In this document: positions 2,493-38,351 of the stretch, one piece after another
Layout of the letters: the number at the start of each line of letters is the position of its first letter
Numbering within the stretch: position 1 is the first letter of the stretch
IMG/VR virus record: IMGVR_UViG_3300032073_000077
Location: 1 to 38,351 of that record
Reading direction: 5' to 3' (one strand)
DNA length: 38,351 nt
Source: a virus
Program-made: the position numbers and the translations under genes
Notes under the pieces: model-generated
Databases searched by the model: none
What the model was told of the DNA's origin: nothing
The model's input: only the letters and a program-made list of their open reading frames with translations

Positions 2493-3152
2493 ATGGTAAT
2501 GTCACTAGCAGAAGCTAAAAAGAAAACTGATGCTAAAATAAAAAAAAATAGAAAAAAATATTTTGGTACAAAAGAATCAGGACCGCCTAGTTCAGATAAA
2601 AGACTTGGAAAAACAATTAAAAATGTTGGAAATAAAATTAAAAACTTTGTAAGTTCTGCAAGCAGTGAACCAAAAACTTTTGGTCAAGCCTTTGCAGCGG
2701 CTAGAAAAAAATTAGGTGCTGGAAAAACATTTACTTATAAAGGTAAAAAATATACTACTAATAGAGCAGATGACAAAAAGAAAGTTAATAAGCCTATGTA
2801 TAGTAACGATACTGCCGATAAGAAAAATCCTAGAGGTCCAAAAGTAAGTGTTCGTCAAGGTACTCCAGATCAAAAACGAGGTTCAAAAACTCAAACAGCT
2901 CCTGCCGAAAAGAAATCTATTTTTAGTAAAGTAAAAAATGAATTTGGTAAAATGAAATCTGATTTTAATAAAGCAGTTAAAGAAACTAAAAGAAATTTTG
3001 GTCCAGATCGAATGAAAAGTGCAAACAAAAAGAAATTAGATTCTAAAGGTAACTATAAAGGAACTAATATTAAACCTACTAAGTTACAATTAAGTAGAAT
3101 GAAAATGGCTAAAGGCTACAGTGCTGGTGGAACAGTATTTACAGGGAGATAA
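2493..3152 (+). CDS. Lysine-rich basic virion-associated protein
   Basis: This 219-residue protein has very high Lys content and low predicted order. Two landmarks stand out. A short block at about residues 61-85 (FGQAFAAARKKLGAG, then KTFTYKGKKYTT) resembles a module repeatedly seen in small basic proteins of marine podoviruses near the head genes. The C-terminus (KGYSAGGTVFTGR) carries the same GG-[hydrophobic] mini-motif that recurs in the internal virion proteins of this window. It may be a DNA-contacting internal head protein or a decoration protein; neither role is established. ATG 2493 lies behind GGAGAA, just after the capsid terminator, so this gene needs readthrough or its own promoter. 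Confidence 0.7.
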   Translation: MVMSLAEAKKKTDAKIKKNRKKYFGTKESGPPSSDKRLGKTIKNVGNKIKNFVSSASSEPKTFGQAFAAARKKLGAGKTFTYKGKKYTTNRADDKKKVNKPMYSNDTADKKNPRGPKVSVRQGTPDQKRGSKTQTAPAEKKSIFSKVKNEFGKMKSDFNKAVKETKRNFGPDRMKSANKKKLDSKGNYKGTNIKPTKLQLSRMKMAKGYSAGGTVFTGR

Positions 3153-3731: not shown

Positions 3732-4817
3732 ATGGCATTAACATATACTGAGCTTACTACACTCGTTAGAAACTGGTGTAACCGAGACGAAGAGGTTGTG
3801 AGTGATGCGATCATTCAAGATTGCTTAAAGTATGCCGCAGATAAGGCTTACCGAACACTTCGTGTTCCTCCTTTAGAAAACGTAGCAATATACGAAAAGT
3901 CTTTATTAGAGACAGCAACCGCAACAGGTCAAAGTGGATTAACTATAACAGAATTACAGTTACCTTTTGACTTAATAGAATTTATACAGATAAAAGAATT
4001 AGATAGTGATAGTAAGTCGTTAAGAGTGTTTAATGAAAAACTAGATATACGAACATTTAATGATGTTAATGCAGAGAAATATTCCAATATGAACTATTGG
4101 ACTAGACAAAGGAATGTTGTCCTACTCACTCCTGGATTTAATAGTACAGGAAGTGCCAATAGTATAGAAATGTTATACTATAGAAGACTACCAGCTTTAG
4201 ATGCATTATATTCAGTTACAGTATTAAACTATAATGCTGGGTTCTTAACCACAACTGGTGGAACTACATACTTATACTTTACCACAACTGGTGGTGTAGC
4301 TAATACAACAGCATATGCAACTCAAGCAGAAGCTGTCACAGCAGCTACAGGAAATATAACTGCTAAAGTAAATGTGGCAGTAAATAATAGTACAAGTATA
4401 ACAAACGATAATAGATCAGGTACAGTTGTTGTTGGACAAGAGCTATCAGGTACAGGAGTTGTAGCAAATGCATCAACAGGTGCTCCTCCAAAGGTAACTA
4501 ATGTAAGTAATCAAAATAGTATAACAGTAGATACTGCACAGACAATAGCTGATAATGTAGATATAACATTCTCAAATACAACAGCTACAAAATATATAGG
4601 AACACTTGTCCCTAACTGGCTTAGAGATCAAAATGAAAGAGTATTACTTATGGGTGCTCTTGCAGAAATATTCTCGTTTACACAAGAAGATGACCAAGCC
4701 CAAAAGTATGGTACAATGTTCTTTAATGAAATAAAAGAATTAAATGACGAAGATGGAAAGAGGAATGCATCTGGTGGTAATCTACAAATAAACTTTAATG
4801 GAAGAGGGTTAATATAA
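3732..4817 (+). CDS. Head-tail adaptor protein with inserted beta domain
   Basis: This 361-residue protein is a short-tail adaptor (T7 gp11 / SU10 adaptor-like). The N-terminus (LTTLVRNWCNRDEEV, then DCLKYAADKAYRTLRVP) is the usual start of this family. 'LPFDLIEFIQIKEL' and 'IEMLYYRRLPAL' follow, and the family ends with 'NWLRDQNERVLLMGALAEIF', a helical segment and a C-terminal tail. The adaptor ring would join the portal to the nozzle. In most relatives the 'YYRRLPAL' block runs almost straight into 'NWLRD'. Here about 135 residues (about 158-292) rich in Thr, Asn, Val and Gly are inserted, with an Ig-like or bacterial-surface-domain look. The inserted stretch contains a 14-base in-frame direct repeat. 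Confidence 0.85.
   Translation: MALTYTELTTLVRNWCNRDEEVVSDAIIQDCLKYAADKAYRTLRVPPLENVAIYEKSLLETATATGQSGLTITELQLPFDLIEFIQIKELDSDSKSLRVFNEKLDIRTFNDVNAEKYSNMNYWTRQRNVVLLTPGFNSTGSANSIEMLYYRRLPALDALYSVTVLNYNAGFLTTTGGTTYLYFTTTGGVANTTAYATQAEAVTAATGNITAKVNVAVNNSTSITNDNRSGTVVVGQELSGTGVVANASTGAPPKVTNVSNQNSITVDTAQTIADNVDITFSNTTATKYIGTLVPNWLRDQNERVLLMGALAEIFSFTQEDDQAQKYGTMFFNEIKELNDEDGKRNASGGNLQINFNGRGLI
4248..4294 (+). repeat. 14-bp in-frame direct repeat in adaptor insertion
   Basis: ACCACAACTGGTGG occurs at 4248-4261 and again at 4281-4294, a 33-base period equal to 11 codons. Each copy encodes a Thr-Thr-Gly-Gly turn. It lies inside the inserted beta-rich domain of the adaptor and suggests local duplication. 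Confidence 0.7.
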
Positions 4818-6139
4818 TGACAACTGCAGCAAGACCTGGACAGTTTACAGGTGCAACAGATAACTCTGCCAACGGTGGCTTGTTTGGTGATACTAAAATA
4901 GATGGTATTCCTGATCTAGTCGGTGCAGATGTCCTCGCAGCTCAAACGGCTGCAACAAATGCAAAGACTTCGGAAACAAATGCAGCAACAAGTGCAACCA
5001 ATGCAGCAACAAGTGAAACAAATGCTGGTAATAGTGCCACTAGTGCAAGTACGAGTGCAACAAATGCGAGTACAAGTGCTACAAACGCTAGTAACAGTGC
5101 CAGTACAACTGCGGCAGATGCAGCAACAGCAACAGCTAAGGCAACTGCGGCAAGTACAAGTGCAACTAATGCGGCAGCATCTGAAAGTGCAGCAGCAGGT
5201 AGTGCAACAAGTGCAAGTACAAGTGCATCTACAGCAACTACACAAGCCAACAATGCAACTACAAATGCATCATTGGCAACAACTGCAAAGAATGCAGCAG
5301 TCGTAGCTCAAACAGCGGCAGAAACAGCCGAGACTAATGCAGAGACTGCAGAGACTAATGCAGAAACAGCTGAGGCTAATGCAGTAACTGCTAAAAACAC
5401 TGCAACAACTCAAGCAACTAATGCATCTAGTAGTGCAACTGCAGCAGCAACTAGTGCAACTGCTAGTGCAACAAGTGCTACTGCAAGTGCCAGTAGTGCA
5501 ACAGCATCAGGGACTAGTGCAAGTACTGCAAGTGGACATGCAACAACTGCTACAACACAAGCAACCAAGTCACAGAACTACGCTATAAAAGTAGACGGAG
5601 CTATCACAGGATCAGAGTTCTCATCTAAAGCATGGGCTGTAGGTGGTACAGGTGTTGATAATGCTTCTGGTGGTGGTAGTGCCAAGGACTGGGCAACAGA
5701 TACAACTAATACAGTAGATAATACAGAATACAGTGCTAAAGAATATGCAATAGGAATACAGGCAGCTCAATCAAATGGTTCAGCTAAACAGTGGGCGTTA
5801 GGTGGCGGTAACTTTGTTATGTCCACAGCAGTCTCTGGTGGTCAATACTCAGCAAAGTATTGGGCAGATCAAGCAGCTTCCTCGGTAGCTAACTTCGATG
5901 AGAAGTACTATGGGAACTATGCAAGTGATGCTGCAGCAGAAAATGCCCATGAAGCCGCAGGTAAAACTGTAACTGTTGGTGATCTATACTATAGCACCTC
6001 GGTTAATGCAGTTAGATATTGTCAAGTAGCACCTTCAGGCACAGGAGCACCAGTAGGTACATGGCAATCAATAGCACAACAAGATTTATCAAGCTATGCA
6101 ACAAATGGTTTTGCAATAGCTATGTCAATAGCTTTATAG
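4817..6139 (+). CDS. Tail fibre with Ala/Thr/Ser/Asn repeat stalk
   Basis: This 440-residue protein has a short N-terminal region (about 1-40) that probably docks to the tail. A long degenerate repeat stalk (about 45-255) follows, built of units such as ATSATNAATSETNA. Such low-complexity coiled stalks are typical of trimeric phage fibres. The C-terminal part (about 255-440) has several AKxWA-type repeats (SSKAWAVGG, SAKDWATD, SAKEYAIG, SAKQWALGG, SAKYWADQ), a recurrent module in phage fibres, then a terminal domain ending AMSIAL. It starts at a TAATG overlap with the adaptor gene. It is likely the main T7-gp17-like fibre shaft to which the small fibre proteins downstream may attach. That partnership is inferred. 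Confidence 0.85.
   Translation: MTTAARPGQFTGATDNSANGGLFGDTKIDGIPDLVGADVLAAQTAATNAKTSETNAATSATNAATSETNAGNSATSASTSATNASTSATNASNSASTTAADAATATAKATAASTSATNAAASESAAAGSATSASTSASTATTQANNATTNASLATTAKNAAVVAQTAAETAETNAETAETNAETAEANAVTAKNTATTQATNASSSATAAATSATASATSATASASSATASGTSASTASGHATTATTQATKSQNYAIKVDGAITGSEFSSKAWAVGGTGVDNASGGGSAKDWATDTTNTVDNTEYSAKEYAIGIQAAQSNGSAKQWALGGGNFVMSTAVSGGQYSAKYWADQAASSVANFDEKYYGNYASDAAAENAHEAAGKTVTVGDLYYSTSVNAVRYCQVAPSGTGAPVGTWQSIAQQDLSSYATNGFAIAMSIAL
4945..5570 (+). repeat. Degenerate short repeats coding the fibre stalk
   Basis: The tract is dominated by variants of AGTGCAACAA and AATGCAGCAACA, in frame with the fibre stalk. The skewed composition also opens long spurious frames on both strands, which are not genes. 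The repeats would allow length variation by slippage or recombination. Confidence 0.8.
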
Positions 6140-16253: not shown

Positions 16254-18002
16254 ATGCTAAGAAATAGAAACTATGAAGGTCCAATCATGACCATCGCTCA
16301 AGAAATAGATGAAATGAAATACAGACAGAAGGGAGAGACCTTCGATGATAAAATAAAGAGGATAGCAAGAGCATTATCAGATGGAGACGAACATAGATTC
16401 GTACTTGAAGATATATTAGGTGAGATGAGATTCCTTCCTGCAGGTAGAGTACAATCTGCAATAGGTTCTAACCGTATTACTACTGCTTATAATTGTTTTG
16501 TATCAGGAGAAATAGAGGATAGTATGGACTCTATTATGGAAAGAGCAAAAGAAGCCGCAGAGACAATGAGAAAAGGTGGTGGCATAGGCTATGACTTTAG
16601 TAAGCTAAGACCTAGAGGAGACCTTATAAAGTCTCTTGATAGTAAGTCTAGTGGACCAATCTCGTTTATGCAAGTCTTTGATTCTGTTTGTCAAACTATA
16701 GCTAGCTCTGGACATAGACGAGGAGCACAGATGGGTGTCTTAAGAATCGATCATCCTGACGTACTTGACTTTATAAGAGCTAAAAGAAATAATGACAAGC
16801 TAACTGGATTTAATATTTCAGTCGGTATCACAGATGCTTTCATGGATGCATTAGAAAATGGAACTGAATATGAGTTAATATTTAATGGTGAAGTCCGTGG
16901 TAGTCTTTCAGCTCAAGAAGTATGGGATGAAGTTATGTCGTCTACTTGGGATTGGGCAGAGCCTGGAGTTTTATTTATTGATCGTATTAAAGAGATGAAT
17001 AACCTTTGGTACTGTGAAGAGATATATGCAACAAATCCTTGTGGTGAACAACCTTTGCCAGCTTATGGTGCTTGTTTATTAGGATCATTCAATCTTACTA
17101 AGTATCTTGAGAAAGAAAAGAAAGGCTATGTATTTAACTTTAAACAATTTAAATCAGATATAAAGCCAGTTGTTCAAGCCATGGATAATGTTGTCGATAG
17201 AACTATCTATCCACTCAAGGCACAAGAAGATGAGGCAAAAAATAAAAGACGTATGGGATTAGGTGTTACTGGTATGGCAAATGCTGGTGAAATGCTTGGT
17301 TATCCATATGCTTCAAAAGAATTTATGACATGGGCTGAAAAAATATTCGCATGTCTAAGAGATAACTGCTATAAAGCTTCGGCTATGTTAGCAAAAGAAA
17401 AAGGTGCTTTTCCTTTATTTAGAAGGGAATACCTTAAAAGTAATTATATTAGGTCGTTACCAGCTTCCGTACAAAGCCTTATAAGAGAACACGGAATACG
17501 TAATAGCCATCTTACATCAATCGCACCTACAGGTACAATTAGTATCATAGGAGATAACGTTAGTGGAGGAATTGAACCTGTTTACAGTCATAAATATGAT
17601 AGAACTATACAGACATTTGATGGTCCAATCGTTGAAACCGTAGAAGACTATGCCTACTCGCATGGAGTAGAAGGTCGTACTGCGGATAGTATTAGTGTTA
17701 ATGATCATCTAGAGGTGCTATTATTAGCTCAACACTATATTGACAGTGCATGTTCAAAAACTTGTAACGTAAGTGGTGATGTGGACTATGATTCATTTAA
17801 ACAAGTATATGTTAATGCATGGAAAGGTGGGGCGAAAGGATGCACTACGTTCCGTATTGACGGAAAGAGATTCGGAATCTTTAACGAAACCGTGGAAGAA
17901 GAAACGAAGGTATCTAGCGAGACTGAGGCAGTGGCTCAAGAAGAAGACAAAGTTGAGGCTTGCTTTATCGACCCAGCGACTGGCATACGAGAGTGTGCTT
18001 AG
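16254..18002 (+). CDS. nrdJ: Class II (adenosylcobalamin-dependent) ribonucleotide reductase
   Basis: This 582-residue protein carries the ten-stranded barrel motifs of class II reductases, which convert ribonucleotides to deoxyribonucleotides with coenzyme B12. Visible residues are redox Cys81 (TAYNCFVSG), the radical-site triad N261/C263/E265 (NPCGEQPLP) and redox Cys274 (AYGACLLGSFNL). The barrel loop IAPTGTISIIG is also present. The C263 to C274 spacing equals that of Thermotoga NrdJ. C-terminal Cys570 and Cys581 should relay electrons from thioredoxin-type donors, though ten residues between them is wider than the usual CxxC. ATG 16254 has AGAGG upstream. It lies unusually between lysis and tail genes. 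No nrdR, metal-binding small subunit or thioredoxin gene is seen nearby. Confidence 0.92.
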   Translation: MLRNRNYEGPIMTIAQEIDEMKYRQKGETFDDKIKRIARALSDGDEHRFVLEDILGEMRFLPAGRVQSAIGSNRITTAYNCFVSGEIEDSMDSIMERAKEAAETMRKGGGIGYDFSKLRPRGDLIKSLDSKSSGPISFMQVFDSVCQTIASSGHRRGAQMGVLRIDHPDVLDFIRAKRNNDKLTGFNISVGITDAFMDALENGTEYELIFNGEVRGSLSAQEVWDEVMSSTWDWAEPGVLFIDRIKEMNNLWYCEEIYATNPCGEQPLPAYGACLLGSFNLTKYLEKEKKGYVFNFKQFKSDIKPVVQAMDNVVDRTIYPLKAQEDEAKNKRRMGLGVTGMANAGEMLGYPYASKEFMTWAEKIFACLRDNCYKASAMLAKEKGAFPLFRREYLKSNYIRSLPASVQSLIREHGIRNSHLTSIAPTGTISIIGDNVSGGIEPVYSHKYDRTIQTFDGPIVETVEDYAYSHGVEGRTADSISVNDHLEVLLLAQHYIDSACSKTCNVSGDVDYDSFKQVYVNAWKGGAKGCTTFRIDGKRFGIFNETVEEETKVSSETEAVAQEEDKVEACFIDPATGIRECA

Positions 18003-25580: not shown

Positions 25581-28061
25581 ATGAACTTAAAAAAATATAC
25601 ACAAAAAGATAGGTATGGAAATATGTTTTCCTACGAGTTCGATGTACCCTCTATGCAAGAGATTCCTCAACCAGATCCAGAGATATTTAAACCAAAGGGA
25701 ACTGATACTGTACCTGCTATGTTAACTCCTGGAGAGAATGTAGTGAATGCAGAAGCATCTAGACTTCCTGGAGTACAACCTATGCTTGATAAACTCAATG
25801 ACAAAGGTCGTGCTATACAGAAAGAACAAGGTGGACCGATACCTAGTTACAATTCAAGAGGAGATAAAGTAGACTACTATGGTAATAATTATGGTCAATC
25901 AACTATCAATGCAGAAATAAACACATTAAAAGGAATGGGATTATCTGATGCACAGATTATACAGGCTCTTATGAATAACCTTAATATGTCTCAAGGAGAA
26001 GCTCAATCGGCTTTAATGCCTACCTATAAACAAGAAGGCGGAGTCATCACAGAAGACATGATGCCTAGCGTACTTGATGCTATAAGGAAAGTAGAATCTG
26101 GTGGTGATGTAAATGCAGTATCTGAAGTAGGTGCAGCAGGACCATATCAGATAATGAAAGCCACAGCATTAAAACCTGGGTATGGTGTAGAAGCTATAAG
26201 TGGTGCTGATAGATTTAATGAGGTAAAGTCGAGAGCCTTTGCTAAACAATACCTACAAGGTATTATGAAGGCACACCCAGAGTTTACTAAAGATGAAGTG
26301 ATAACAGCTTATCACTCAGGAGTTGGTAATGTTCTCAAGGCTAAAGGTGGCGTAGAAGAACTCGGTACTCGTGGTAAGAGATATGCTGGTAAAGTAAACA
26401 CCGCTATGGGTATACCTAAGATAATTGAATATGATGCTACACCTCAAGAAGCAGGATTTATGTCTGCACAGGCGAGCACTATGTCAGATAGAGAAAAGAA
26501 AGATGCTGAATTGTTAAAAGGAATAACACAAGAAAGGGATATCGATGATCGTAATTTCTTTACTAAACTATTTAGCGATGCACCTCCAGCTGAAGATCCA
26601 GTATTACCTATGGATGAGAGTGAGAATGCTTTAGGTGTTATCCCTGATTTTAAAAGTAAATTTCCTCAAATGGTTAATACTTTATTTAAAGCTCCTCCTA
26701 AAACAGTTGAAAGCATAGTCGATGATGACCCATCTGGAGCAGAAATAACTGCTAATAGTGCTGCTAAATTGATTGAAGAAATGGAGGCTTCAGAGGGTTA
26801 CGCAGAAGAAGAAGGTAAGCTAACCTTAGATAAGGCAGATACTGAATGGGCTAAAAAGAATCTTACAGGTAAATACGAAGGTGACTTTAGTCAATACCTT
26901 ATTAATAAAGGAAAAGAATATGGCGGTATTGCATTAGATAAATCTATAGAGTATTTTAAAAATACTTTTTCAAATATGTTTGATGGAGAAGAGCTTGCTC
27001 GAATGGCTCTTATGTATACTGGTTCTCGTGCATTAGGCTATGACCATCTTTCTTCTATTAAATATGGAATGAAAAACTATATTAAGCGTGTTGATAACGA
27101 AATAGCTCAACGTAAAAAGAATGTTGCAAGTGCTGCATGGATTAAGGAGTATACTCCAGAATCAATGGCTCTCTATTTAAAGTCAGGAGATATGAGTGAT
27201 CTAGCAAAGAAAGGAGCAACACTAAAGAAACCTAGTGGTAGTGTTTATGTTGTAGGTGAGGGAGAAGTACCTACATTTACAATGTCAGATGGAACTGAAA
27301 CAGCATTTCATAAAGGACAATATAAACCTTTTACACATAAAGACTTGATAGGTCGAGTAGACAAAATGAATAATGATGTCTATGGTGATGTGGCTGTTAG
27401 TAAACGATTTGCAGAGTATGCTAAAGAACAAATTAAAAAGGCTAATGCAGATGCTGGTCTTAAAGCAGGTAGAAAAGACGATGATACCTACGATACTATG
27501 TTTAGAGAGAATGCTAATTCGATTGGAACTAGAGCTAATGCAGTATATAGGGAAGTTCTTAGATCTAACTTTATATCAATAAAACAAGCTCCTCGCTATG
27601 AGATGGCTATACAAAGAGGTATAGATGCATATCTCAGAGATGTTGCCCTTGCTAAAAAGAACAACAGAACTGCTCCAAAGAGCGTAGAAGCCTATATAAG
27701 AGAGCAAGTGTTTGTTCCGTTATCAGGCGTTGGAGGAGATCAGGTCGGAAAGACCTCTACTCAGCATATAACTGAGATAAATAGAGAGGTTAAGAGAGGT
27801 ATTCCAGGAGCTCCAGACAGTCAAGAGTATTTAGAAGAATACAAAAGACGATGGGCAAAGAAGACTGTAGCTTGGAATCAACTACGATTGACTAATCCTA
27901 AACAATACCAAAAGATTAAAGACGGTGTTGATAGGCGTAATAATATCTGGCTCAAAGAACAACCAGATAAAACAACTATAATAAAAAATTGGGATCCATT
28001 TACATATTGGGTCTCCATAACTCCAGAAAGTGAAATTGATAGGCTGATTGACACAGCATAA
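25581..28061 (+). CDS. Internal virion protein with lytic transglycosylase domain
   Basis: This is an 826-residue protein. The N-terminal 'DTVPAMLTPGENVVNAEAS' (about 40-60) is a motif common at the start of ejection and tape-measure proteins, followed by GG mini-motifs (KEQGGPIP, KQEGGVIT). Residues about 155-270 form a soluble lytic transglycosylase (SLT) domain: catalytic E172 in 'RKVESGGD', 'GAAGPYQIMKATA', and 'AYHSGVGNVLKAKGG' in place of the usual AYNAGxG. It should cut peptidoglycan glycan strands when ejected, like the N-terminus of T7 gp16. The remaining about 550 residues are helical and charged. A strong hairpin terminator follows the gene. Confidence 0.85.
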   Translation: MNLKKYTQKDRYGNMFSYEFDVPSMQEIPQPDPEIFKPKGTDTVPAMLTPGENVVNAEASRLPGVQPMLDKLNDKGRAIQKEQGGPIPSYNSRGDKVDYYGNNYGQSTINAEINTLKGMGLSDAQIIQALMNNLNMSQGEAQSALMPTYKQEGGVITEDMMPSVLDAIRKVESGGDVNAVSEVGAAGPYQIMKATALKPGYGVEAISGADRFNEVKSRAFAKQYLQGIMKAHPEFTKDEVITAYHSGVGNVLKAKGGVEELGTRGKRYAGKVNTAMGIPKIIEYDATPQEAGFMSAQASTMSDREKKDAELLKGITQERDIDDRNFFTKLFSDAPPAEDPVLPMDESENALGVIPDFKSKFPQMVNTLFKAPPKTVESIVDDDPSGAEITANSAAKLIEEMEASEGYAEEEGKLTLDKADTEWAKKNLTGKYEGDFSQYLINKGKEYGGIALDKSIEYFKNTFSNMFDGEELARMALMYTGSRALGYDHLSSIKYGMKNYIKRVDNEIAQRKKNVASAAWIKEYTPESMALYLKSGDMSDLAKKGATLKKPSGSVYVVGEGEVPTFTMSDGTETAFHKGQYKPFTHKDLIGRVDKMNNDVYGDVAVSKRFAEYAKEQIKKANADAGLKAGRKDDDTYDTMFRENANSIGTRANAVYREVLRSNFISIKQAPRYEMAIQRGIDAYLRDVALAKKNNRTAPKSVEAYIREQVFVPLSGVGGDQVGKTSTQHITEINREVKRGIPGAPDSQEYLEEYKRRWAKKTVAWNQLRLTNPKQYQKIKDGVDRRNNIWLKEQPDKTTIIKNWDPFTYWVSITPESEIDRLIDTA

Positions 28062-28146: not shown

Positions 28147-31100
28147 ATGGCTACATTTCAAGATAATCAAGGCAAACAATACACATGGGTAGATAGTGAT
28201 ACCATAGCAGATAACGACAGAAGTTATCGTATTGTAGGTTATAATGCTAGAGAGACCTCTAAGGTTGTTCCTGACAATGAAACAGGTTTACCTAGATTTA
28301 TTATGGGTCAACAAGGTGGTGACGAACAATCCGAAGCTACGCAGAGAATAGCTGCTGCTGGCGGTTTTAATATTATTGAAAGCACAGGAGAGTTTGATTC
28401 TTATGGAAGAGAACTGATTAGAATAAAAGATGCTAAAGGAAATGATCTTAGTAATACACTAATAAGATCAGGAGCAGTCGGTATTAATCGATATACCGAT
28501 GAACAAGGCTTAAAGGCATACGAAGATGGTTTAATGGCTAGAGAGTCAGGGAAGGTATCTAACTATGGTAAAATAGCTGATGAAGTAATTACAAAGAGAC
28601 CTATCTATTTTAAAGATACTCCGTTAATGGAGAAAGCATTTGGATCAAGTCCTACTACTGAGAATGATTATGCCCAACAAGTACTACAAGTTATTGCAGA
28701 ACAAAGAGGTTTAAATCTACAAGACGATGATCAGTTAAGAGAAGCAACTAAAATATTAGATAGCGGAAACTATGATCAACGTAGCATACCTTTTACTGCT
28801 ATAGCTTTTAGGTCTCCTGATAGAACAAAAGAAGGAATAGCCTACAATCAATTCTCAACTTCATGGAATCAAGGCTGGGCTGGAATGGCTAGAGGTCTTA
28901 TGGGTTTTTCAGAGCTAATGGGAGTTACCATTGGCAACGAAGAAATGAAAGAATGGGGTGGTGAAGGTGTTAAAATATATAGTGAAGAATTAAAAAGAGC
29001 ACCTAGACTTGAGAGCATGGATTACCGTGATGTTGATGATGTATGGGATGCATATAGATTTATTTCAAATAACTTAGCCATGTCAGCACCTTATCTCGTT
29101 ACACTTACTACAGGTGCATTATTAACACCAGTTACTGCAGGTGTTTCTATGGGTATTGCCTATGGATCAGTCGGAGGCAGTTATGCTGGTCAAGTATGGA
29201 ACGATATTGAAGGACCGAAAGGTAGACAAGAAGCTGGATTATCTTTATTAGCTGGTACTGCTATGGCAGTTATTGATGCCTTCGGTTTTAAAGGCTTGAT
29301 AAGTCCATCCAGAATACTTAGCAAAGAGGGGAGAGAATATCTAGCCGAAGAAATAGCTAAACGAAGTAAAGGAGAGATAACAGTTGAACAGGCAAGAGAA
29401 TCAGTTAGAGTAATGTCTGTTAAAAAGATGAAAGAGACCATGGAAGGTATGGGTAACTTCGCCTACGATCTTGCTAAACAAGGGAGGCTTGCTCCGTTAA
29501 TTGCGAAGTCACAGTTCATTAAAAGTGGAATTAAAGGTGGTCTTCGAGAGGCTGGCACTGAAGCTGCTCAAGAAGGTCTTGGTTACCTTGCCTCTAAAGC
29601 GATGTCAGAAGGTGGTCTTGATAAAAACTTTGATATGGAAAAGTTTAAAAACTTATTAGCACAAGCTGCAGTGGCAGGTGGTACTCTTGGTACTGGATTT
29701 GCAACTGCTGGTGAGCTAGTTCAAGTTGGAAAGAATAAGGTTCTTAAGCGTGATCTTGAAGAAGGTAAACTAGATAGTTTAAATCCATTTGATAGAATTA
29801 GACGAGAGTTTAATCCTGAAGAAAAAATAACTGATCCTGTTACTGGAATAGAAAGATCTTTCGGTAACAATGATATTATAGATGAGAACAAAAAAGGATC
29901 GGTCAGCCTAAATGTTAATAGTATGGATGAAGCCAATATTAATAGGCTTAATAAAGAACGAATCCTACTAGGTAAACTATCTGATACAGAGCTTAATCAA
30001 AAACTTTCGGATATAGAAAATCGAATAGCTAAAAACGATGAAAGTATTGCTTTAAATTCTGATATAGCAAATCATCCTGATGTAGCTGAAAAAGACAAAG
30101 CAGAGGCTAGGGTAAGAAATAGAAATCTTGAAGGGGATAGGAGAAGAAATCTAGTAAATAAGGAACAAGTAGAAAGAGAGACAACTGGAAGAGCACAAGG
30201 AAGGATAGCTGAGCTAACTCCTAAAGAAGTAGAAAGGATAGAAAACGATATAGCTAAATATGAAGCTAGACCAAAAGATGTTGAACCTCAAGAGTCTAAA
30301 GTAAAACAAGCTACAGAAGCAAGACAAAAAACTTTAGAATCAAGAAAAAGAGACAGAACTTTTTGGGATAAACTTAAAAACTTTAAAGAGTATTTACCAA
30401 AAGGATATCGTGCAGCAGCAACTTCTATCTTTAGACCAGAGTTACTTAGACTAAGTGAGACATTAAGAAAATTAGCTTCTCTAATAGGATCACCTTTAGG
30501 TTCTATGTACAGTGGTAGAAATGTAGAACACTATTCAGATCATTTATTCAGTAACAGATTTATGTCTATACTAAAAGCAAAAAATATATTTCAAAGATTC
30601 GGTTATATAGATACCTTAAGTAACTCAAAAGAAATATCTGAAATAATATATAGATATATGAATGCACAAAAATTAGATCCCACTAGTGCAGAGGCTATTG
30701 CTTACTTTAATAGTAAAGAATACATCAAGCACAAATCAGCTCTTGAAATAACAGTCAATGATCTAAATGACTTAGTACAAACTATGTTTGATTTAGAATA
30801 TGAAATGATGGTTAAAGAAATAGGGGCTGGTGCTGCCATAAGAAGAATCAATGACCCTAAAGATCCTTTCTGGATGAATACAGGTTCTTTTGATTGGAAA
30901 AAAGTTAGACAGAACGAGTCTGCTTGGAAAGCTTTTATGGCTAAGAATGCTAGAAAAATGAATGGAGAAAAATATACTTATTCAGAGATTAACGATCTTT
31001 ATATTAAGATATCTAATCAAGAAGAAGCCAGTGATTTTTCTTTAGTTGAAGGAGACTTCTGGCAACCTAACACTTTTAAAACTAGTAAAGGTCAAAACCT

Positions 31101-32613
31101 CTCTACTGCTGATGGCTTTAGTGATTTTGCTAATACTGACATCATACTTAATATGACTCACTTGTCTAGACAGTATGCTAAGTATATTGCGTACACTACT
31201 TACTTCGGAGCAGGTGGTAAAGACCTTGACTATATGCTTGGTCAAATGAAGGAAGAAGGTTTAAGTGATGACCAAATAGCTGAAGTGGCTCAAGGTGTAA
31301 AAGATATTATTGATGCAGGTACAGGTAACTTTAACAATATTAAAAGTAAAAACTTAAACTTTTGGCAAAGAAAAGCTTCTTTCTTTTCTACGTTAATAGG
31401 ATTACCCTTCTCTGTTCTCGCATCCTTTGCAGAATTTGCTATGTTACTTTATAATGATCCTGGATTTCCTGTGATTAAAGAGGGAATTAAAAAAGCAATG
31501 GGTGAAATGATTACTATATTTAAAGATATAGAAAAAGGAACTCAAAACCCAGCATTAGAAAATGTACCTAATTCAGCTAAAGATTCAAAGGCTTTACATA
31601 GACTAATGATGAATGGACTAGTACATGAAGACGCAGTCGGTGCAACAAGATTAGGGATGGGTGAAACAGATGTTGCCCAAGCTTGGTTTTTAAAGAAATT
31701 TTTTAAGGTTACTTTAATATCACCTTTAACTTTATTCCAAAGAATACTAGCACAAAGTCAAGTAGCTGGTTTTGTTAGTGATAGATTAAGACTATTAGCA
31801 GCAATACCTGAAGGCTACCCTATGAATAACCGACAACAAGAAGTCTATACTCAAATGCTTAATATGGGAATGGATGTTGATACAATGGTTGCTATGTATA
31901 TCAAGTATGATGGCAATCAAGCGTTATTTGATAGCCTTATGGAAGACACTACAGATAAAGTTGCTCAAGCTGATATGGATTTTATGAATGAGCAAATGGA
32001 AATAGGATCTTATGCTTTTATAAATGAAAGAGTTCAAAACCCTAAGGCATACAATAGACCTTTGTTATTCCAAGACCCTCATTACCAACTATTCTTACAG
32101 TTTAACGGTTTTATAAGTACATTTACTGCTAATATTATACCGAAGTTATGGATTGACTATACTAAAAATGGTTCTCCTAGAATGAGATATAATACCTTTG
32201 CATTAATGATCATTATGTTTGCCTTAGCTGGATTATCACAGTGGTTAAAAGACTATATCAAGTTTAAAGACAGTACACCTTACCTAACTAAAGAACAATT
32301 ACTTCAAAGAGCACTTATGGCTTCTGGAATATTAGGTTCAGGTGAAAGAGTATTACAAGCAGCATTTCCACTGTATAGGAGTAGAGATGAGAGCATAGTC
32401 GATAGAGTCTTTGGTGAAACAATAGGTGGTGCTCCCTTTGTCCGTAACGTTGCTAACATAGGTAAATCAATAGGTTCTGCTCTAGAAGGAAAAACTGAGC
32501 AGGCAGTTAGACAAGGGTTAACAGCAACTCCGTTAATCGCACCAGCAACACCAATAAGAAATATAATACACGATTCAATATTTAATCCAACAGATATTAG
32601 ACCGTACAAATAA
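28147..32613 (+). CDS. Giant internal virion protein with N-terminal SNase-like domain
   Basis: This is a 1488-residue protein. Residues 10-112 match a staphylococcal nuclease fold: D18 in DSDT (cf. SNase D21), R28 (R35), N33 (D40), E36 (E43) in 'RIVGYNARET', and R88 (R87) in 'DSYGRELIRI', followed by 'NTLIRSGAVG'. The three catalytic residues Arg/Glu/Arg are kept with the SNase spacing; one metal ligand is Asn. The rest resembles a very large ejection protein of the T7 gp15/gp16 kind: hydrophobic stretches at about 308-350, 1078-1101 and 1351-1368, long charged helices around 600-750, and 'GYRAAATSIFRPELLRLSET'. AGGAGG precedes the start. A role in DNA delivery is inferred; the nuclease activity is a prediction. 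Confidence 0.8.
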   Translation: MATFQDNQGKQYTWVDSDTIADNDRSYRIVGYNARETSKVVPDNETGLPRFIMGQQGGDEQSEATQRIAAAGGFNIIESTGEFDSYGRELIRIKDAKGNDLSNTLIRSGAVGINRYTDEQGLKAYEDGLMARESGKVSNYGKIADEVITKRPIYFKDTPLMEKAFGSSPTTENDYAQQVLQVIAEQRGLNLQDDDQLREATKILDSGNYDQRSIPFTAIAFRSPDRTKEGIAYNQFSTSWNQGWAGMARGLMGFSELMGVTIGNEEMKEWGGEGVKIYSEELKRAPRLESMDYRDVDDVWDAYRFISNNLAMSAPYLVTLTTGALLTPVTAGVSMGIAYGSVGGSYAGQVWNDIEGPKGRQEAGLSLLAGTAMAVIDAFGFKGLISPSRILSKEGREYLAEEIAKRSKGEITVEQARESVRVMSVKKMKETMEGMGNFAYDLAKQGRLAPLIAKSQFIKSGIKGGLREAGTEAAQEGLGYLASKAMSEGGLDKNFDMEKFKNLLAQAAVAGGTLGTGFATAGELVQVGKNKVLKRDLEEGKLDSLNPFDRIRREFNPEEKITDPVTGIERSFGNNDIIDENKKGSVSLNVNSMDEANINRLNKERILLGKLSDTELNQKLSDIENRIAKNDESIALNSDIANHPDVAEKDKAEARVRNRNLEGDRRRNLVNKEQVERETTGRAQGRIAELTPKEVERIENDIAKYEARPKDVEPQESKVKQATEARQKTLESRKRDRTFWDKLKNFKEYLPKGYRAAATSIFRPELLRLSETLRKLASLIGSPLGSMYSGRNVEHYSDHLFSNRFMSILKAKNIFQRFGYIDTLSNSKEISEIIYRYMNAQKLDPTSAEAIAYFNSKEYIKHKSALEITVNDLNDLVQTMFDLEYEMMVKEIGAGAAIRRINDPKDPFWMNTGSFDWKKVRQNESAWKAFMAKNARKMNGEKYTYSEINDLYIKISNQEEASDFSLVEGDFWQPNTFKTSKGQNLSTADGFSDFANTDIILNMTHLSRQYAKYIAYTTYFGAGGKDLDYMLGQMKEEGLSDDQIAEVAQGVKDIIDAGTGNFNNIKSKNLNFWQRKASFFSTLIGLPFSVLASFAEFAMLLYNDPGFPVIKEGIKKAMGEMITIFKDIEKGTQNPALENVPNSAKDSKALHRLMMNGLVHEDAVGATRLGMGETDVAQAWFLKKFFKVTLISPLTLFQRILAQSQVAGFVSDRLRLLAAIPEGYPMNNRQQEVYTQMLNMGMDVDTMVAMYIKYDGNQALFDSLMEDTTDKVAQADMDFMNEQMEIGSYAFINERVQNPKAYNRPLLFQDPHYQLFLQFNGFISTFTANIIPKLWIDYTKNGSPRMRYNTFALMIIMFALAGLSQWLKDYIKFKDSTPYLTKEQLLQRALMASGILGSGERVLQAAFPLYRSRDESIVDRVFGETIGGAPFVRNVANIGKSIGSALEGKTEQAVRQGLTATPLIAPATPIRNIIHDSIFNPTDIRPYK

Positions 32614-32625
32614 TAGGAGACTTAA

Positions 32626-35600
32626 ATGGCTAAACGTTATACAACAGCGGAGCTTCAAAAAATTAAATTAGATCAGGAGAATCAATTAAATTTTGATGCT
32701 GCTAATCCGATATTAGAATCTGCGGATAATATTATGTCTGGTAATTTACCTTCAGAAACGGTAGGCAGTAATACGCCTATCGAATCTATTGCAAACACAT
32801 CAGTAGTAACAGGGAGACCCTCTCCTTCTACTATAGGTGGACCAACTCCAGATATAGGTTCTCCAGCTAGAGGGCTAGGGGTTGTTCCAACACAAGCTGA
32901 TTACGAAGATCAAGCACAGGCAGGTGATCTTGCTATTAACGTTGATGCTGCAGATCCTTTTGCAGTAGTATCACCTACTTTAGCTACACCAGAAGAATCT
33001 AAGGGGTTGTTACAATCAACAGTTAGTAGAGGGGCTATTAATAGAGAAAACTTTAAAGAAGAAAATCTTAAAGCCATACCTGAATTAATTAATTTACAAC
33101 AACAACTAACTAATGATGAATTAAAATATGGTAATAGGGAAGCAGAGTATATCGCTAAATTATTTGAAGCAACTTCTAAAGCAACTACTGATGCCACTAA
33201 TATATTTGATTCTGACTCATTAGCAATAACTAATGAACAAAAAACTCAGGCATTTGGTAATGCTCAAAATTATTTAAACGAAAATGCTGATGAAGTAAAC
33301 TATATAATAAGAAGTGTAGACTTATTAAATATGTCTGAAGATTCTAGTGATATTAATTCACCACTTAAAAAAGATCTCGGTCCAATCATAGCAGCTGCAG
33401 CTATATTAGAAACTGCTCAAATACTAAGTGATCAAGCTGCAGAAGTAGACGATCAGGATTCTGAGAAAAGACATTCTAACGATATGTCGAAGGAAGTTAT
33501 CGGTCCAAGGGTCGGAGCTAAAATTGAACAAATGATTTTTGGTTCTAAAGACTTAGATACACCTAATAGGTCAGGATTACCTAGAGATTATGGATATGTA
33601 TCGAGATTAACTGGACAACAACGAAGTCTTTTAGGTCAAATATCAATGGATGCTATGGCAAGGAGTCCTTTATTTGATTTCCTTACAGAAGAAGAAGTGA
33701 TTGATATTAATACTGGAAAACCTAAGACCATATATAACACTACAAGACTGCAATATTATAATTTAAATAGGGTTGTTAATGCTGTTAGGGATATGTTAGG
33801 AGAAAGTGGTCCTCAAAAACCTGTCAGACATAGTAAGAAAGGTAAAGGAAGGCTAGCTCCTATGAGTGAGAAGGGAGCTTATAAAACCTCTAAGATGACT
33901 AAGAATGTATCTAAGAGTGAAGCAGTAGAGGAAATGGATACTGCTCGTCATAAAGCAGACAATATAGTACATACTGTACCTCCTCAAATACCTATAATAT
34001 ATGCTGGATTTCTTAATGCTGGATTAGATGCCGCAGCTCTTCAAAAGAACGGTACTGATTTAACATCGAGTGCAGCAGCTAAATATACTAAGCAAGACTA
34101 CGAATACTACCAAGATAAGGTTCAAGACTATCTCGAAGATTACCTATTAAAAGAAGAAAAGCTTGGATTAAAAGTAGAAGATCTTAAAACATATGATCCA
34201 CTTACAGGAGCACCAGCCACTACCTTCATGAGAGCCGCAGAATTAAAAGCTGATGGCGTAGTTGCTCGACATAAAGAACGCTGGGAGCGTAGAATAAGTG
34301 AAGGCTTTGACAATATAGGTAAGCCAATATACTTTGATAATAGATCAATTTCTTTTGGTATGAGAATGTTTGGTTCACAGGATGAATTAAACTATTGGCA
34401 AGATAAAATAGCGAGGGGCTTATTACATCCAGCCTTCCCTACAATATTTAAGAAGACTGGAGAAGCAAAGAATTTAACAGGTCAAGTAGATATGCTTGGA
34501 ACACCTTTAAATGTAAATGATTATTACTCCTCAGTAATAGATAGTGCTATAGAGAAATCAAAAAATAATTTAGAATACGATAAATTTACTGATGAAGAAA
34601 ACTATCATCGTATAATGGCAAGAACTCTCGTTCCAGATGCTGATAAATATATCTTTGAAAACTATGCAGATGTTCTTCAAGTATACAAAGAAATGTATAC
34701 AGAGCTTGTGTCTCTCGGTCAACAAATCAATGAATTTAAAGATTCTCAAAAAGAAAAGGTAGCTACACCTGAGGCGATTGATCTCAGTGCTCGAAATCCT
34801 AATGCAATAGACAGAATGCCTATCAGTGCTTCTCTTAATGAGTACTTAGAAAAAATAGGTAAGGATGAATTCTATTACGCATTAAACAACCTACCTGATT
34901 TAGCTTTGTATGATGCTAAAGGTGTTGATCAAGACTTTGCAACTAAAGTAAAAGCAGGTGCTGATGGAGTAGCTAACGGTGCTACTATTCTAGGTTACCA
35001 ACTAGGAATAGAAGAAATAATAACAAGAGGAGGCATACTCCTTAATGGTAGAGAAACTATCGAAGAAGACCTAAGAGATTATGTGTTCAATAAGATGGCT
35101 CAACTCCCTGAAATAAAAGCAGATAATGGAGACCCTGATCAATGGGATCTTTCATTCAGAGCAATGGCAGCTGATAACAAAAAGAAAGACCTAATGAAAA
35201 GCCCAGTCATGACTACTATGTATGGTCTTGAAGCTGATTTTCAAAAAGGTGCAGCTGAACAATTTGTTAAGAAGAATCCTAAATACTTTAAACATCTTGA
35301 TGAGACTAATCCAACTAAAATAATCGAAGGCTTAAGAAATTATATGGCTGACGGATTAAAACTTGGATTGGGTCCAGCACTAGATCATGCAAATTTAGCT
35401 AAACGTATTGGTCGTCTTTTCGTATTGGCAGATGAACCTGCAATAATGCGTGGACCAAAACTAGGCGAAACAGATTCTAGTCGCTTTCCTCTAGTTGCTA
35501 CAGGTGTTAAATCATTAGTTACTAGTGATGACACATATATGCTAGGTACAGGAGCAACACCTGAAGGTCAAGACATAGCAACTACTCGAATCAAGACTAC

Positions 35601-36369
35601 TAAAGCAGTAGCTGATGTCGTAGAACCTAAAGCATCAAAGCTAATAGGTGCTGGCGGACAAAGGAGTAAGCCAGGAAAAGGCAGTGGAACTATGGATAAG
35701 ATACCAGTTGCATCTACAACAGCTCAAGATGCTGCAGTTATTATTAAGTATCTTAATGGAGAACTAGAGCCTGACGAATTCTTTATGCAAATTTATGATG
35801 GTGTTATTGGTGATGTTAAATCTTTCTTCAAGATGACTGAAGCAATCAATAGAATCTTTTTAGATGTGGTTCAAAATTATAAATTACTAGAAGAAGAACA
35901 GCGAATGGTTGTTAATCTTAAAGAGAAGTTTAAAGCAGAAGCGAAAAGCAATCCTGATGGGATAAAAGATTTAAGTCCAACAGGAAGATATGCATATCTG
36001 GGTGAATTTCTATCAAATGGTTATATGAGAAATGAAACTCTTAAAAAAGATTTACCGTTTAGAACTTCAGATAGTAGAATTGCTAATCTAGATAACACTA
36101 AGGCTAGTCCAGAAGATACTCGACATAAAGCAAATCATCGAAGATTACAAGCAGTTAAAGCAGACATTAAAAATATAGCAGATAAGTTAAATTATAACAA
36201 CAGATACGCTGCTACTAAACAACTAACCAATGTGGAATTTAGTAAACTCTTTAATGAACTAATAACTGCACTCGGTACTTTATCTGAGTTAGATAAAAGA
36301 GTAATTGAAGCTAAAGTAAAACAAAAGAAAATTGCAGATAAAATTAGAAAGACTATGCAATATAAATAA
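32626..36369 (+). CDS. Putative virion RNA polymerase (N4 vRNAP-like single-subunit RNAP)
   Basis: This 1247-residue protein lies at the end of the ejection block. Residues 1 to about 540 are low-complexity then helical, with no assignable family. From about 566 it follows the order of single-subunit RNA polymerases: 'YFDNRSISFGMRMFG' with R573 resembles the D-x-R-G-R region, although the T7 R425 position is Ile. Motif A has D780 (GADGVANGATI). Motif B has K858 and Y866 eight residues apart (MKSPVMTTMYG, cf. T7 K631/Y639). 'STTAQDAAVI' resembles the HSxDxxH segment. Motif C has D1058 (MQIYDGVIGD, cf. T7 HDSFG D812). It is probably packaged and ejected to transcribe early genes. No sequence search has been made. 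Confidence 0.72.
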   Translation: MAKRYTTAELQKIKLDQENQLNFDAANPILESADNIMSGNLPSETVGSNTPIESIANTSVVTGRPSPSTIGGPTPDIGSPARGLGVVPTQADYEDQAQAGDLAINVDAADPFAVVSPTLATPEESKGLLQSTVSRGAINRENFKEENLKAIPELINLQQQLTNDELKYGNREAEYIAKLFEATSKATTDATNIFDSDSLAITNEQKTQAFGNAQNYLNENADEVNYIIRSVDLLNMSEDSSDINSPLKKDLGPIIAAAAILETAQILSDQAAEVDDQDSEKRHSNDMSKEVIGPRVGAKIEQMIFGSKDLDTPNRSGLPRDYGYVSRLTGQQRSLLGQISMDAMARSPLFDFLTEEEVIDINTGKPKTIYNTTRLQYYNLNRVVNAVRDMLGESGPQKPVRHSKKGKGRLAPMSEKGAYKTSKMTKNVSKSEAVEEMDTARHKADNIVHTVPPQIPIIYAGFLNAGLDAAALQKNGTDLTSSAAAKYTKQDYEYYQDKVQDYLEDYLLKEEKLGLKVEDLKTYDPLTGAPATTFMRAAELKADGVVARHKERWERRISEGFDNIGKPIYFDNRSISFGMRMFGSQDELNYWQDKIARGLLHPAFPTIFKKTGEAKNLTGQVDMLGTPLNVNDYYSSVIDSAIEKSKNNLEYDKFTDEENYHRIMARTLVPDADKYIFENYADVLQVYKEMYTELVSLGQQINEFKDSQKEKVATPEAIDLSARNPNAIDRMPISASLNEYLEKIGKDEFYYALNNLPDLALYDAKGVDQDFATKVKAGADGVANGATILGYQLGIEEIITRGGILLNGRETIEEDLRDYVFNKMAQLPEIKADNGDPDQWDLSFRAMAADNKKKDLMKSPVMTTMYGLEADFQKGAAEQFVKKNPKYFKHLDETNPTKIIEGLRNYMADGLKLGLGPALDHANLAKRIGRLFVLADEPAIMRGPKLGETDSSRFPLVATGVKSLVTSDDTYMLGTGATPEGQDIATTRIKTTKAVADVVEPKASKLIGAGGQRSKPGKGSGTMDKIPVASTTAQDAAVIIKYLNGELEPDEFFMQIYDGVIGDVKSFFKMTEAINRIFLDVVQNYKLLEEEQRMVVNLKEKFKAEAKSNPDGIKDLSPTGRYAYLGEFLSNGYMRNETLKKDLPFRTSDSRIANLDNTKASPEDTRHKANHRRLQAVKADIKNIADKLNYNNRYAATKQLTNVEFSKLFNELITALGTLSELDKRVIEAKVKQKKIADKIRKTMQYK

Positions 36370-36682: not shown

Positions 36683-38351
36683 TTAACAGAAGAAGTAATC
36701 TGATTGAACTACTTCTTTAATATTTAAAGCACCGATAGTCGGTTGCTCACCTTCATAGCCTCTTCCAAATGGAATTGAGTCATAGAAGTTTTCTTTATCG
36801 TATAGCTTAACGAACTTATCTCGTGCCTCTATCATAAGGTCTTCTACCTTAGTGGCATGAGCACTAAATGAGTCATGTACTGCTCCGAAGTCACCATCCC
36901 AATCGGCTACTACAAGAGCCATATGAGCTGCATCAGAGCTATGAACAAAGTTAGGACTGATACCACACATAAACCCTCGTCTATCTGGTATATCTGTCTT
37001 CTCTCGTATCACATGCTTGAATCTCAGTTCACCTTCTGGTGTATTGAATCCGTAACAGTCTACCTTTGCAGGTCTAGTACGATAACATTCGTATATCACT
37101 GGAAAACCTGACTCGGATTCCCATTGTATACCACGACCTCTATCAGTACCATAAGTTGCTAACCAATTAGAGATTTCTTTATCAGCTAATCGTTGCAGAT
37201 ATCTCATAGTATCTAATGGACCTGGACAGACCTCTTGTATAGCTCTTATTACTTGATTACTAAGCTCATCACAATCCCAAGTATTGATATTGTAATCTTT
37301 AGTATAACCAAACTGATAACAGTCACTATACATAGACTCTGACATTTTCTTCTGACCACAGCTGTAAGCCCTAGTCATAGCCCCTCTCTTAGCTATCCCT
37401 TTCCTGATATGCTTCATAGGCATCTGCCTTTCTTCAAACCATTCAGGCATCCTCTCGCATAATCTCTTTGCCACTTGAACATAGAAATCATTGGGTACAT
37501 CTTCAGAGGTTAATCCTACTAGTCTACCTGTAAGGGAGTCTTTAGACATAGCACCTAAGTGTTGCCAACCATTATTAGCACCATCAATAGGTATCGGTAG
37601 CTGAGTATAGAACTCTCCTTTACTCTGGGAGTACTTATACCACTCGATACAACAAGCCATGAATGCTATTCGTTTCTCTGCTTCTTCTGCAAAGATCCTC
37701 ATCTCACCCATCTCAATTATCGTATCAATATTCTCTTGAGTCCATCTAGCTCTATCATCTAGTGTCATCTTATCTACAGATATAGTATCAAGTTCTTCTT
37801 CCTGTAATATCTTCTTATAGTCTGAAGATGCCCAGTTAGGTATCTGATCTATACTGTATGACTGATTAAATGAACAAGCAGTATGTACTGCCAACCAGAA
37901 GTTAGCTGTCTCATCAAAGAGTTTTCCTTTGGCAAAGAGTAACTGACTACGAGCTATATCTGCTCCTTGAAAGTTAAAGAACGGTTCACTATAATATAGT
38001 CTACCTCTATAGTCTGCATCTAAGTAGAAGCTAAACTCTTTGTCTAACCACTTATCAGCTGCTGCCATAACCTCTTTGACTTCTCTATTCTTTGACGCTT
38101 GGCGTTGATATAGCTTAGCGTTCTCATTCTTATCCTCACCATCAAAGGTATCGTTGCTAATAAACGTATCCCAATTCTCTAGGATAGCCTTATGTACATC
38201 AGGGTTTACAGTAAACCTAGTTGCCTGTAACTTATCGATTGCCTTTACAAATGGCTTATCGAGATACTTAAAGAACTTATGCTCTTTAGATTTATCCCAA
38301 GTCTTTATAACTGACTTCCCATTATTTTGGAATAGGCTCTTTATAGGAGGT
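36683..38351 (-). CDS. T7-like single-subunit RNA polymerase (5' end beyond window)
   Basis: About 555 codons are visible. The frame stays open from the ATG at 38068 to the window edge (PPIKSLFQNNGKSVIKTWD, AIDKLQATRFTVNPDVHKAI), so that Met is internal and the N-terminal promoter-binding domain lies outside. Landmarks match T7 RNA polymerase: 'DADYRGRLYYSEPFFNFQG' (D-x-R-G-R), motif A 'IPIDGANNGWQHLGAM', motif B 'RKGIAKRGAMTRAYSCG' (Lys and Tyr eight apart), 'NFVHSSDAAHM', and motif C 'GAVHDSFSAHA' near 36870. The terminus is hydrophobic-aromatic (SDYFFC), like the Phe-Ala-Phe-Ala foot of T7. It should transcribe the middle and late genes. Its leftward direction is opposite to the structural genes, unlike T7. 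Confidence 0.95.
   Translation of the reverse strand, partial: PPIKSLFQNNGKSVIKTWDKSKEHKFFKYLDKPFVKAIDKLQATRFTVNPDVHKAILENWDTFISNDTFDGEDKNENAKLYQRQASKNREVKEVMAAADKWLDKEFSFYLDADYRGRLYYSEPFFNFQGADIARSQLLFAKGKLFDETANFWLAVHTACSFNQSYSIDQIPNWASSDYKKILQEEELDTISVDKMTLDDRARWTQENIDTIIEMGEMRIFAEEAEKRIAFMACCIEWYKYSQSKGEFYTQLPIPIDGANNGWQHLGAMSKDSLTGRLVGLTSEDVPNDFYVQVAKRLCERMPEWFEERQMPMKHIRKGIAKRGAMTRAYSCGQKKMSESMYSDCYQFGYTKDYNINTWDCDELSNQVIRAIQEVCPGPLDTMRYLQRLADKEISNWLATYGTDRGRGIQWESESGFPVIYECYRTRPAKVDCYGFNTPEGELRFKHVIREKTDIPDRRGFMCGISPNFVHSSDAAHMALVVADWDGDFGAVHDSFSAHATKVEDLMIEARDKFVKLYDKENFYDSIPFGRGYEGEQPTIGALNIKEVVQSDYFFC

Follow-up and report, generated by a model that had tools for sequence, protein, structure and literature searches.

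The late gene block of a viral genome recorded in IMG/VR (IMGVR_UViG_3300032073_000077; the window below is the whole 38,351-nucleotide stretch analysed) ends with a long open reading frame, and the question raised by this locus is whether its product is an RNA polymerase (RNAP) that is carried in the virion and injected into the host. A first-pass annotation made from the letters alone had proposed a packaged single-subunit RNAP of the T7/N4 type. The reading frame was found where that annotation placed it, running from an ATG to a stop codon (Table 1), and the analysis supports a compact relative of the phage N4 virion RNAP (vRNAP) in a marine phage outside the known N4 family.

The gene is the last of the late block and follows those for a transglycosylase protein and a large virion protein. 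Convergent to it lies a gene, not named in the first-pass annotation, for a canonical T7-like RNAP (Pfam RNA_pol, E 9e-53), and such phages therefore have two single-subunit RNAPs. The window encodes a major capsid protein of the SU10_MCP type (PF17236) and its T7-like RNAP is of the one-piece form; portal, TerL and DNA polymerase are encoded beyond its ends. Other features of the window included a ribonucleotide reductase gene inside the late block (16254-18002), and in Roseobacter phage CRP-7 the annotated ribonucleotide reductase region (L002:22053-24671) is split in two by an intervening ORF, which may be an insertion. The lysis genes comprised a gene-transfer-agent-type holin (PF11351, 15079-15474) followed by a phage lysozyme (PF00959, 15778-16200). 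An Ala/Thr/Ser-rich repetitive ORF in the tail-fibre region (4817-6139) contained many repeats spaced by 21 bp, and similar repeats occurred in several related genomes.

Table 1. Positions of the features discussed; coordinates refer to the window unless a locus of a related genome is given
Feature	Position	Strand	Details
Ejection-block virion protein with SLT transglycosylase domain	25581..28061	+	826 aa, 0 Cys
Large ejection-block virion protein	28147..32613	+	1488 aa, 0 Cys; homologue of a LUZ24-like virion structural protein
Compact N4-type single-subunit RNAP (putative vRNAP)	32626..36369	+	1247 aa, 0 Cys
N-terminal ~85 residues	32626..32880	+	Low confidence in AlphaFold2 model; residues 48-85 with pLDDT < 50
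T/DxxGR-equivalent motif, residues 576-600	34351..34425	+	R580 and R597 invariant; N589, K594
Motif A, residues 778-794 (GADGVANGATILGYQLG region)	34957..35007	+	D780 and G785 invariant
Motif B, residues 855-868 (DLMKSPVMTTMYGL)	35188..35229	+	K858 (K/R), M862, Y866, G867
Motif C first half (T7 HSQD equivalent), residues 1030-1036, STTAQDA region	35713..35733	+	D1035 in 40/41
Motif C, residues 1054-1063 (MQIYDGVIGD)	35785..35814	+	D1058 invariant
Canonical T7-like RNAP (Pfam PF00940)	36683..38351	-	555 codons present, 12 Cys; window end cuts gene
Palindrome ATAGnnCCACTTTGGnnCTAT	L102:1513-1545; L103:1318-1350, 2923-2955		
Palindrome ATAGnnCCACTTTGGnnCTAT	L105 13890-13922, 14517-14549 (-); L113 12649-12681 (-)		
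Three conserved TAAC-loop hairpins	L120:2451, 2667, 3418; also L121, L132		L064 group

Homologue family and catalytic residues

No match to the window protein was found in Pfam, NCBIfam, PHROGs, PDB sequences, 50,697 phage genomes or IMG/VR patterns, and an hmmsearch of the A2 profile against the PDB returned just a weak PadR match on a helical stretch (E 0.007). Relatives were reached through the adjoining T7-like RNAP gene, for which an IMG/VR scan yielded 76 loci, and iterated HMM searches of the ORFs from these loci recovered about 60 homologues of 1092-1365 aa with 13-31% identity to the window protein. The failed library and single-sequence searches show divergence and not an absence of kinship. 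The homologue gene was present, and convergent to the T7-like RNAP gene, in all 62 loci that extended far enough past the latter, while every one of the 14 loci without it ended less than 600 bases from the RNAP, so that its linkage to this neighbour, as to the ejection block, was strict. A further homologue beside a T7-like RNAP was located on a contig binned as Candidatus Pelagibacter (L134; MED605), which hints at SAR11 hosts or at a mis-binned phage.

The only cultured relative found was phage CRP-7, in which gp33 occupies the same genomic place. When five family members were compared by tblastn with the 50,697 phages, CRP-7 itself was the sole match. CRP-7 gp33 gave no BLASTP match to the window protein, and the profile of the gp33 group matched that of the family at 5.5e-16 over 672 columns. 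The CRP-7 motif A had been sought at GDAGSAS, which was wrong, and the alignments fit EADARQSNAG. ICP2 gp6 (Zobellviridae), a LUZ24-like particle protein, HTVC106P gp41 and pCB2047-C gp14 gave no match to the profile.

The motif residues named in the first-pass annotation were present in the translation as claimed: D780 in GADGVANG, K858 and Y866 exactly eight apart in MKSPVMTTMYG, D1035 in STTAQD and, 23 residues later, D1058 in IYDGV. Their conservation in 41 diverse, non-redundant homologues went beyond chance, with D780 and D1058 invariant and Y866 and D1035 each kept in 40 of the 41. R580, R597, G785, G803, D815, R817 and N1075 were likewise invariant, and K594, M862, G867, Q1032 and D1063 were near-invariant, the window protein itself having T at 1032. 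Residue 858 was K in 34 and R in 7 homologues, and the presence of Arg in place of the motif B Lys in these and in the CRP-7 group counts against the vRNAP reading. The Arg of the DxRGR motif had been thought replaced by Ile, a register error of seven residues, as residue 573 is variable and the invariant residue is R580. The latter aligned with R424 of N4 and R425 of T7 (N4 VGR424..NPQ..K..R; T7 RGR425), D780 with N4 D559 (EAD559GVTNG), K858/Y866 with N4 K670/Y678 and D1058 with N4 D951 (IFD951GMN; T7 counterpart HD812S). The motif set of the single-subunit RNAP superfamily, namely the Asp of motifs A and C, the motif B K..Y spacing of 8 and the DxxGR Arg, was thus found in the window protein.

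Kinship with N4 polymerases and predicted fold

Comparison of profiles with hhalign matched the family to 13 N4-like vRNAPs at P = 6.9e-23 over 727 columns (window-protein residues ~188 to ~1102) and to T7-like RNAPs at P = 1.2e-8. The controls, which were the families of the two neighbouring virion proteins, profiles in reverse and the N4 profile with its columns shuffled in five ways, gave no match. They scored at most 35, compared with 217 for the N4-like vRNAPs, and a chance occurrence of the motifs was ruled out by these profile controls. The N4-vRNAP HMM also matched homologues directly in hmmsearch (best E = 3.5e-14). A tree built on the motif blocks (104 columns) set the family, N4 and the CRP-7 group apart from the T7-like RNAPs with support of 100/99; the N4 group received 84/92, and the split between the new family and N4 was not firm at 83/68. 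Judged by sequence, the family is closer to N4 vRNAP than to the T7-like RNAPs.

An AlphaFold2 model of residues 48-1247 made with 46 sequences had a mean pLDDT of 72.9 and a pTM of 0.76. The 50 matches listed by Foldseek in the PDB were all single-subunit RNAPs (mitochondrial, T7 and N4; E 1e-13 to 3e-9), and matches in a predicted-viral structure library were likewise phage RNAPs and virion-encapsulated RNAPs. VIA-align returned Z scores of 22.0 for yeast mitochondrial RNAP (715 aligned), 20.6 for T7 and 19.2 for N4 mini-vRNAP (3c46; 760 residues aligned, 6.2 A). The palm/fingers fold, set beforehand as the point on which the polymerase proposal could fail, was present in the model, which matched T7, mitochondrial and N4 RNAPs full-length. 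This fold match and the N4 vRNAP profile match (P = 7e-23 when rounded) together support the proposed identity as a T7/N4-type single-subunit RNAP. In the model D780 is at the end of a palm strand, K858 is in a helix with Y866 just beyond it, and D1058 is in a beta-hairpin turn; read from this predicted secondary structure, the placement appears to be that which a single-subunit RNAP active site requires. A protein of the CRP-7 group was modelled as well, at lower confidence (pLDDT 56, pTM 0.58), and this model too matched single-subunit RNAPs (E 1e-8, Z 17.8).

The earlier claim of about 540 extra N-terminal residues was wrong. The profile alignment with N4 mini-vRNAP begins at residue ~188 and the structural alignment near 103, so that only ~100 residues, mostly disordered, are additional. 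As the predicted polymerase fold starts from ~103, the protein would amount to the polymerase domain of N4 vRNAP (residues 998-2103 of 3500) preceded by a short disordered stretch.

Probable virion packaging and proposed infection programme

Cysteine was absent from 40 of 41 family sequences (median length 1220 aa), from all seven of the CRP-7 group and all 13 N4-like sequences, and from 35/41 and 35/35 members of the two adjacent ejection-block families. None of the 47 T7-like RNAPs of the same phages (Cys content ~1.9%) and none of 115 other phage ORFs of at least 300 aa was Cys-free. A connection has been drawn between the lack of Cys in N4-like vRNAPs and transit through the tail (PMC3915230), and the N4 vRNAP gene likewise ends the late block beside the ejection proteins (PMC12633501). 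Because Cys is absent and the gene closes the late block, behind the ejection-block genes, packaging in the virion is likely. The larger of these neighbours matched a LUZ24-like virion structural protein (hhalign 5e-26, 806 columns), which itself gave no match to the vRNAP profile. In N4 vRNAP the N-terminal domain (NTD) has been described as likely membrane-spanning and the C-terminal domain (CTD) as autoinhibitory (PMC12633501). The giant size of ~3500 aa with these two domains was not a property of the family, and neither domain could be matched to the family or to its two neighbours from the ejection block; delivery would therefore have to differ from that of N4.

An active N4-like RNAP that is not packaged, and is instead made and used in the cell for example in late transcription or replication priming, could have its gene in the late block too, and RNAP synthesis in the cell by such phages is evident from the adjoining T7-like RNAP. 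This is nevertheless improbable, since in-cell synthesis is already covered by that RNAP, the gene directly follows the ejection-block genes as the last of its block, and the absence of Cys is common to the family, the CRP-7 group, the adjacent ejection-block families and N4 vRNAP, whereas the T7-like RNAPs and other proteins of the same phages do contain Cys. A former polymerase retained as a catalytically inactive structural ejection (core) protein is less probable still. The high divergence from the window protein noted above, the change of the motif B Lys to Arg in some homologues and the structural ejection proteins encoded next to the gene would agree with such a role, but 41 sequences otherwise little alike have kept the catalytic Asp pair, R580, Y866 and G785 with hardly an exception, as expected under selection for catalysis. 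That the product is an ordinary structural protein with motifs arisen by chance is hardly credible; the lack of a sequence match in Pfam, NCBIfam, PHROGs and the PDB would fit, and the profile and fold matches with their clean controls refute it.

Perfect hairpins with 7-bp stems and loops of 3-5 nt were not enriched in early regions, and no clear N4-style promoter hairpin with a 3-nt loop was found, which may count against the vRNAP reading. A repeat search and a comparison of divergent regions yielded two candidate elements. One is an imperfect palindrome, ATAGnnCCACTTTGGnnCTAT, with varying arms in the early intergenic regions of several genomes including the distant CRP-7, where it lies near 1521, sometimes paired at 21 or 31 bp; the part common to distant genomes is 20 nt at 95% between CRP-7 and G005. 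The other consists of the TAAC-loop hairpins found where the early region of the L064 group begins, which show compensating stem differences and are followed by TTTCC. The palindrome could be a promoter, operator or terminator, and the same three roles could apply to the hairpins. An inverted repeat of ~20 bp, ACTTTAAGGGGACATTTAAATT ... TTTAAATGTCTCCTTAAAG, was also conserved in the late/early divergent region near the TerL start of three genomes (G008/G009/G019; L108, L110, L117).

It is very probable that the gene encodes a compact N4-type virion RNAP which is packed, ejected and transcribes early genes, after which the T7-like RNAP takes over. We infer packaging, ejection, activity, early promoters and the order of the cascade as follows. 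The enzyme would be made late, along with the proteins of head and tail, enter the capsid together with the 826-aa and 1488-aa proteins, and be ejected through the tail along with the DNA. Once in the cell it would take on the right-hand polymerase fold, with Asp 780 and 1058 as its catalytic residues, and transcribe the early genes, so that early expression need not await the host RNA polymerase. The T7-like RNAP would be an early or middle product and would then serve middle and late genes. N4 runs a three-polymerase cascade and uses its two-subunit T7-like RNAPII in the corresponding middle/late role. The wider proposition, of a marine phage lineage outside Schitoviridae that relies on an injected minimal N4-type vRNAP for early genes and then on a T7-like RNAP with little or no host RNAP, is quite possible, if tentative.

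If this proposition is true, the minimal enzyme would show that the N4 NTD and CTD are dispensable for polymerase packaging and ejection. Delivery of a transcription enzyme of their own may be commoner among phages than thought, and might be how those that infect slow-growing marine bacteria begin transcription unaided. A natural version ~1,200 residues long, from phages with another type of capsid and probably packaged as argued above, would give a picture of the minimal packaged enzyme, and raises the question of how loading and ejection proceed without the extra domains of N4. Since the cultured CRP-7 carries the gene, this question is directly testable. The presence of an N4-type and a T7-type enzyme in one genome also bears on the origin of the N4 cascade.

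Comparison with known systems

Injected single-subunit RNAPs have been treated as a hallmark of the N4-like viruses (PMC10654107), the Schitoviridae, where the enzyme is a giant of ~3,500 residues. The window protein resembles vRNAP gp50 of Escherichia phage N4 in fold over ~760 residues, in all catalytic motifs (N4 R424/D559/K670/Y678/D951 corresponding to R580/D780/K858/Y866/D1058), in the lack of Cys and in the terminal position of its gene in the late block beside ejection proteins. It differs from gp50 in length (1247 vs 3500 aa), in sequence (about 13% identity) and in having no detected counterpart of the NTD or autoinhibitory CTD. Unlike N4, the phages that carry the family combine a capsid protein of the SU10 type with a T7-like RNAP in one piece and are not placed in Schitoviridae. 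The T7-like RNAPs of Autographiviridae, as well as that encoded in the window, belong to the same superfamily and share the catalytic residues, but they form a separate clade and carry Cys, and in the family loci their gene and the virion genes lie on opposite strands.

A compact N4-type vRNAP was not reported earlier in the literature searched, which excluded most subscription journals and preprints. Size, position and the absence of Cys have led to the guess that Stenotrophomonas phage StenR_269 and Zobellviridae have vRNAPs (PMC10747016), a proposal made without sequence or fold support, unlike the present family; the Zobellviridae example compared, ICP2 gp6, matched neither the family profile nor that of N4. 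In the CRP-7 paper the T7-like RNAP (ORF30) alone was recognised (PMC6918029), and the deposited record labels gp33 a 'hypothetical protein'. CRP-7 gp33 (QBQ72826.1) and its IMG/VR relatives differ from the window protein in having Arg in place of the motif B Lys and EADARQSNAG as motif A, and are like it in synteny, motifs, a fold match to single-subunit RNAPs and the absence of Cys.
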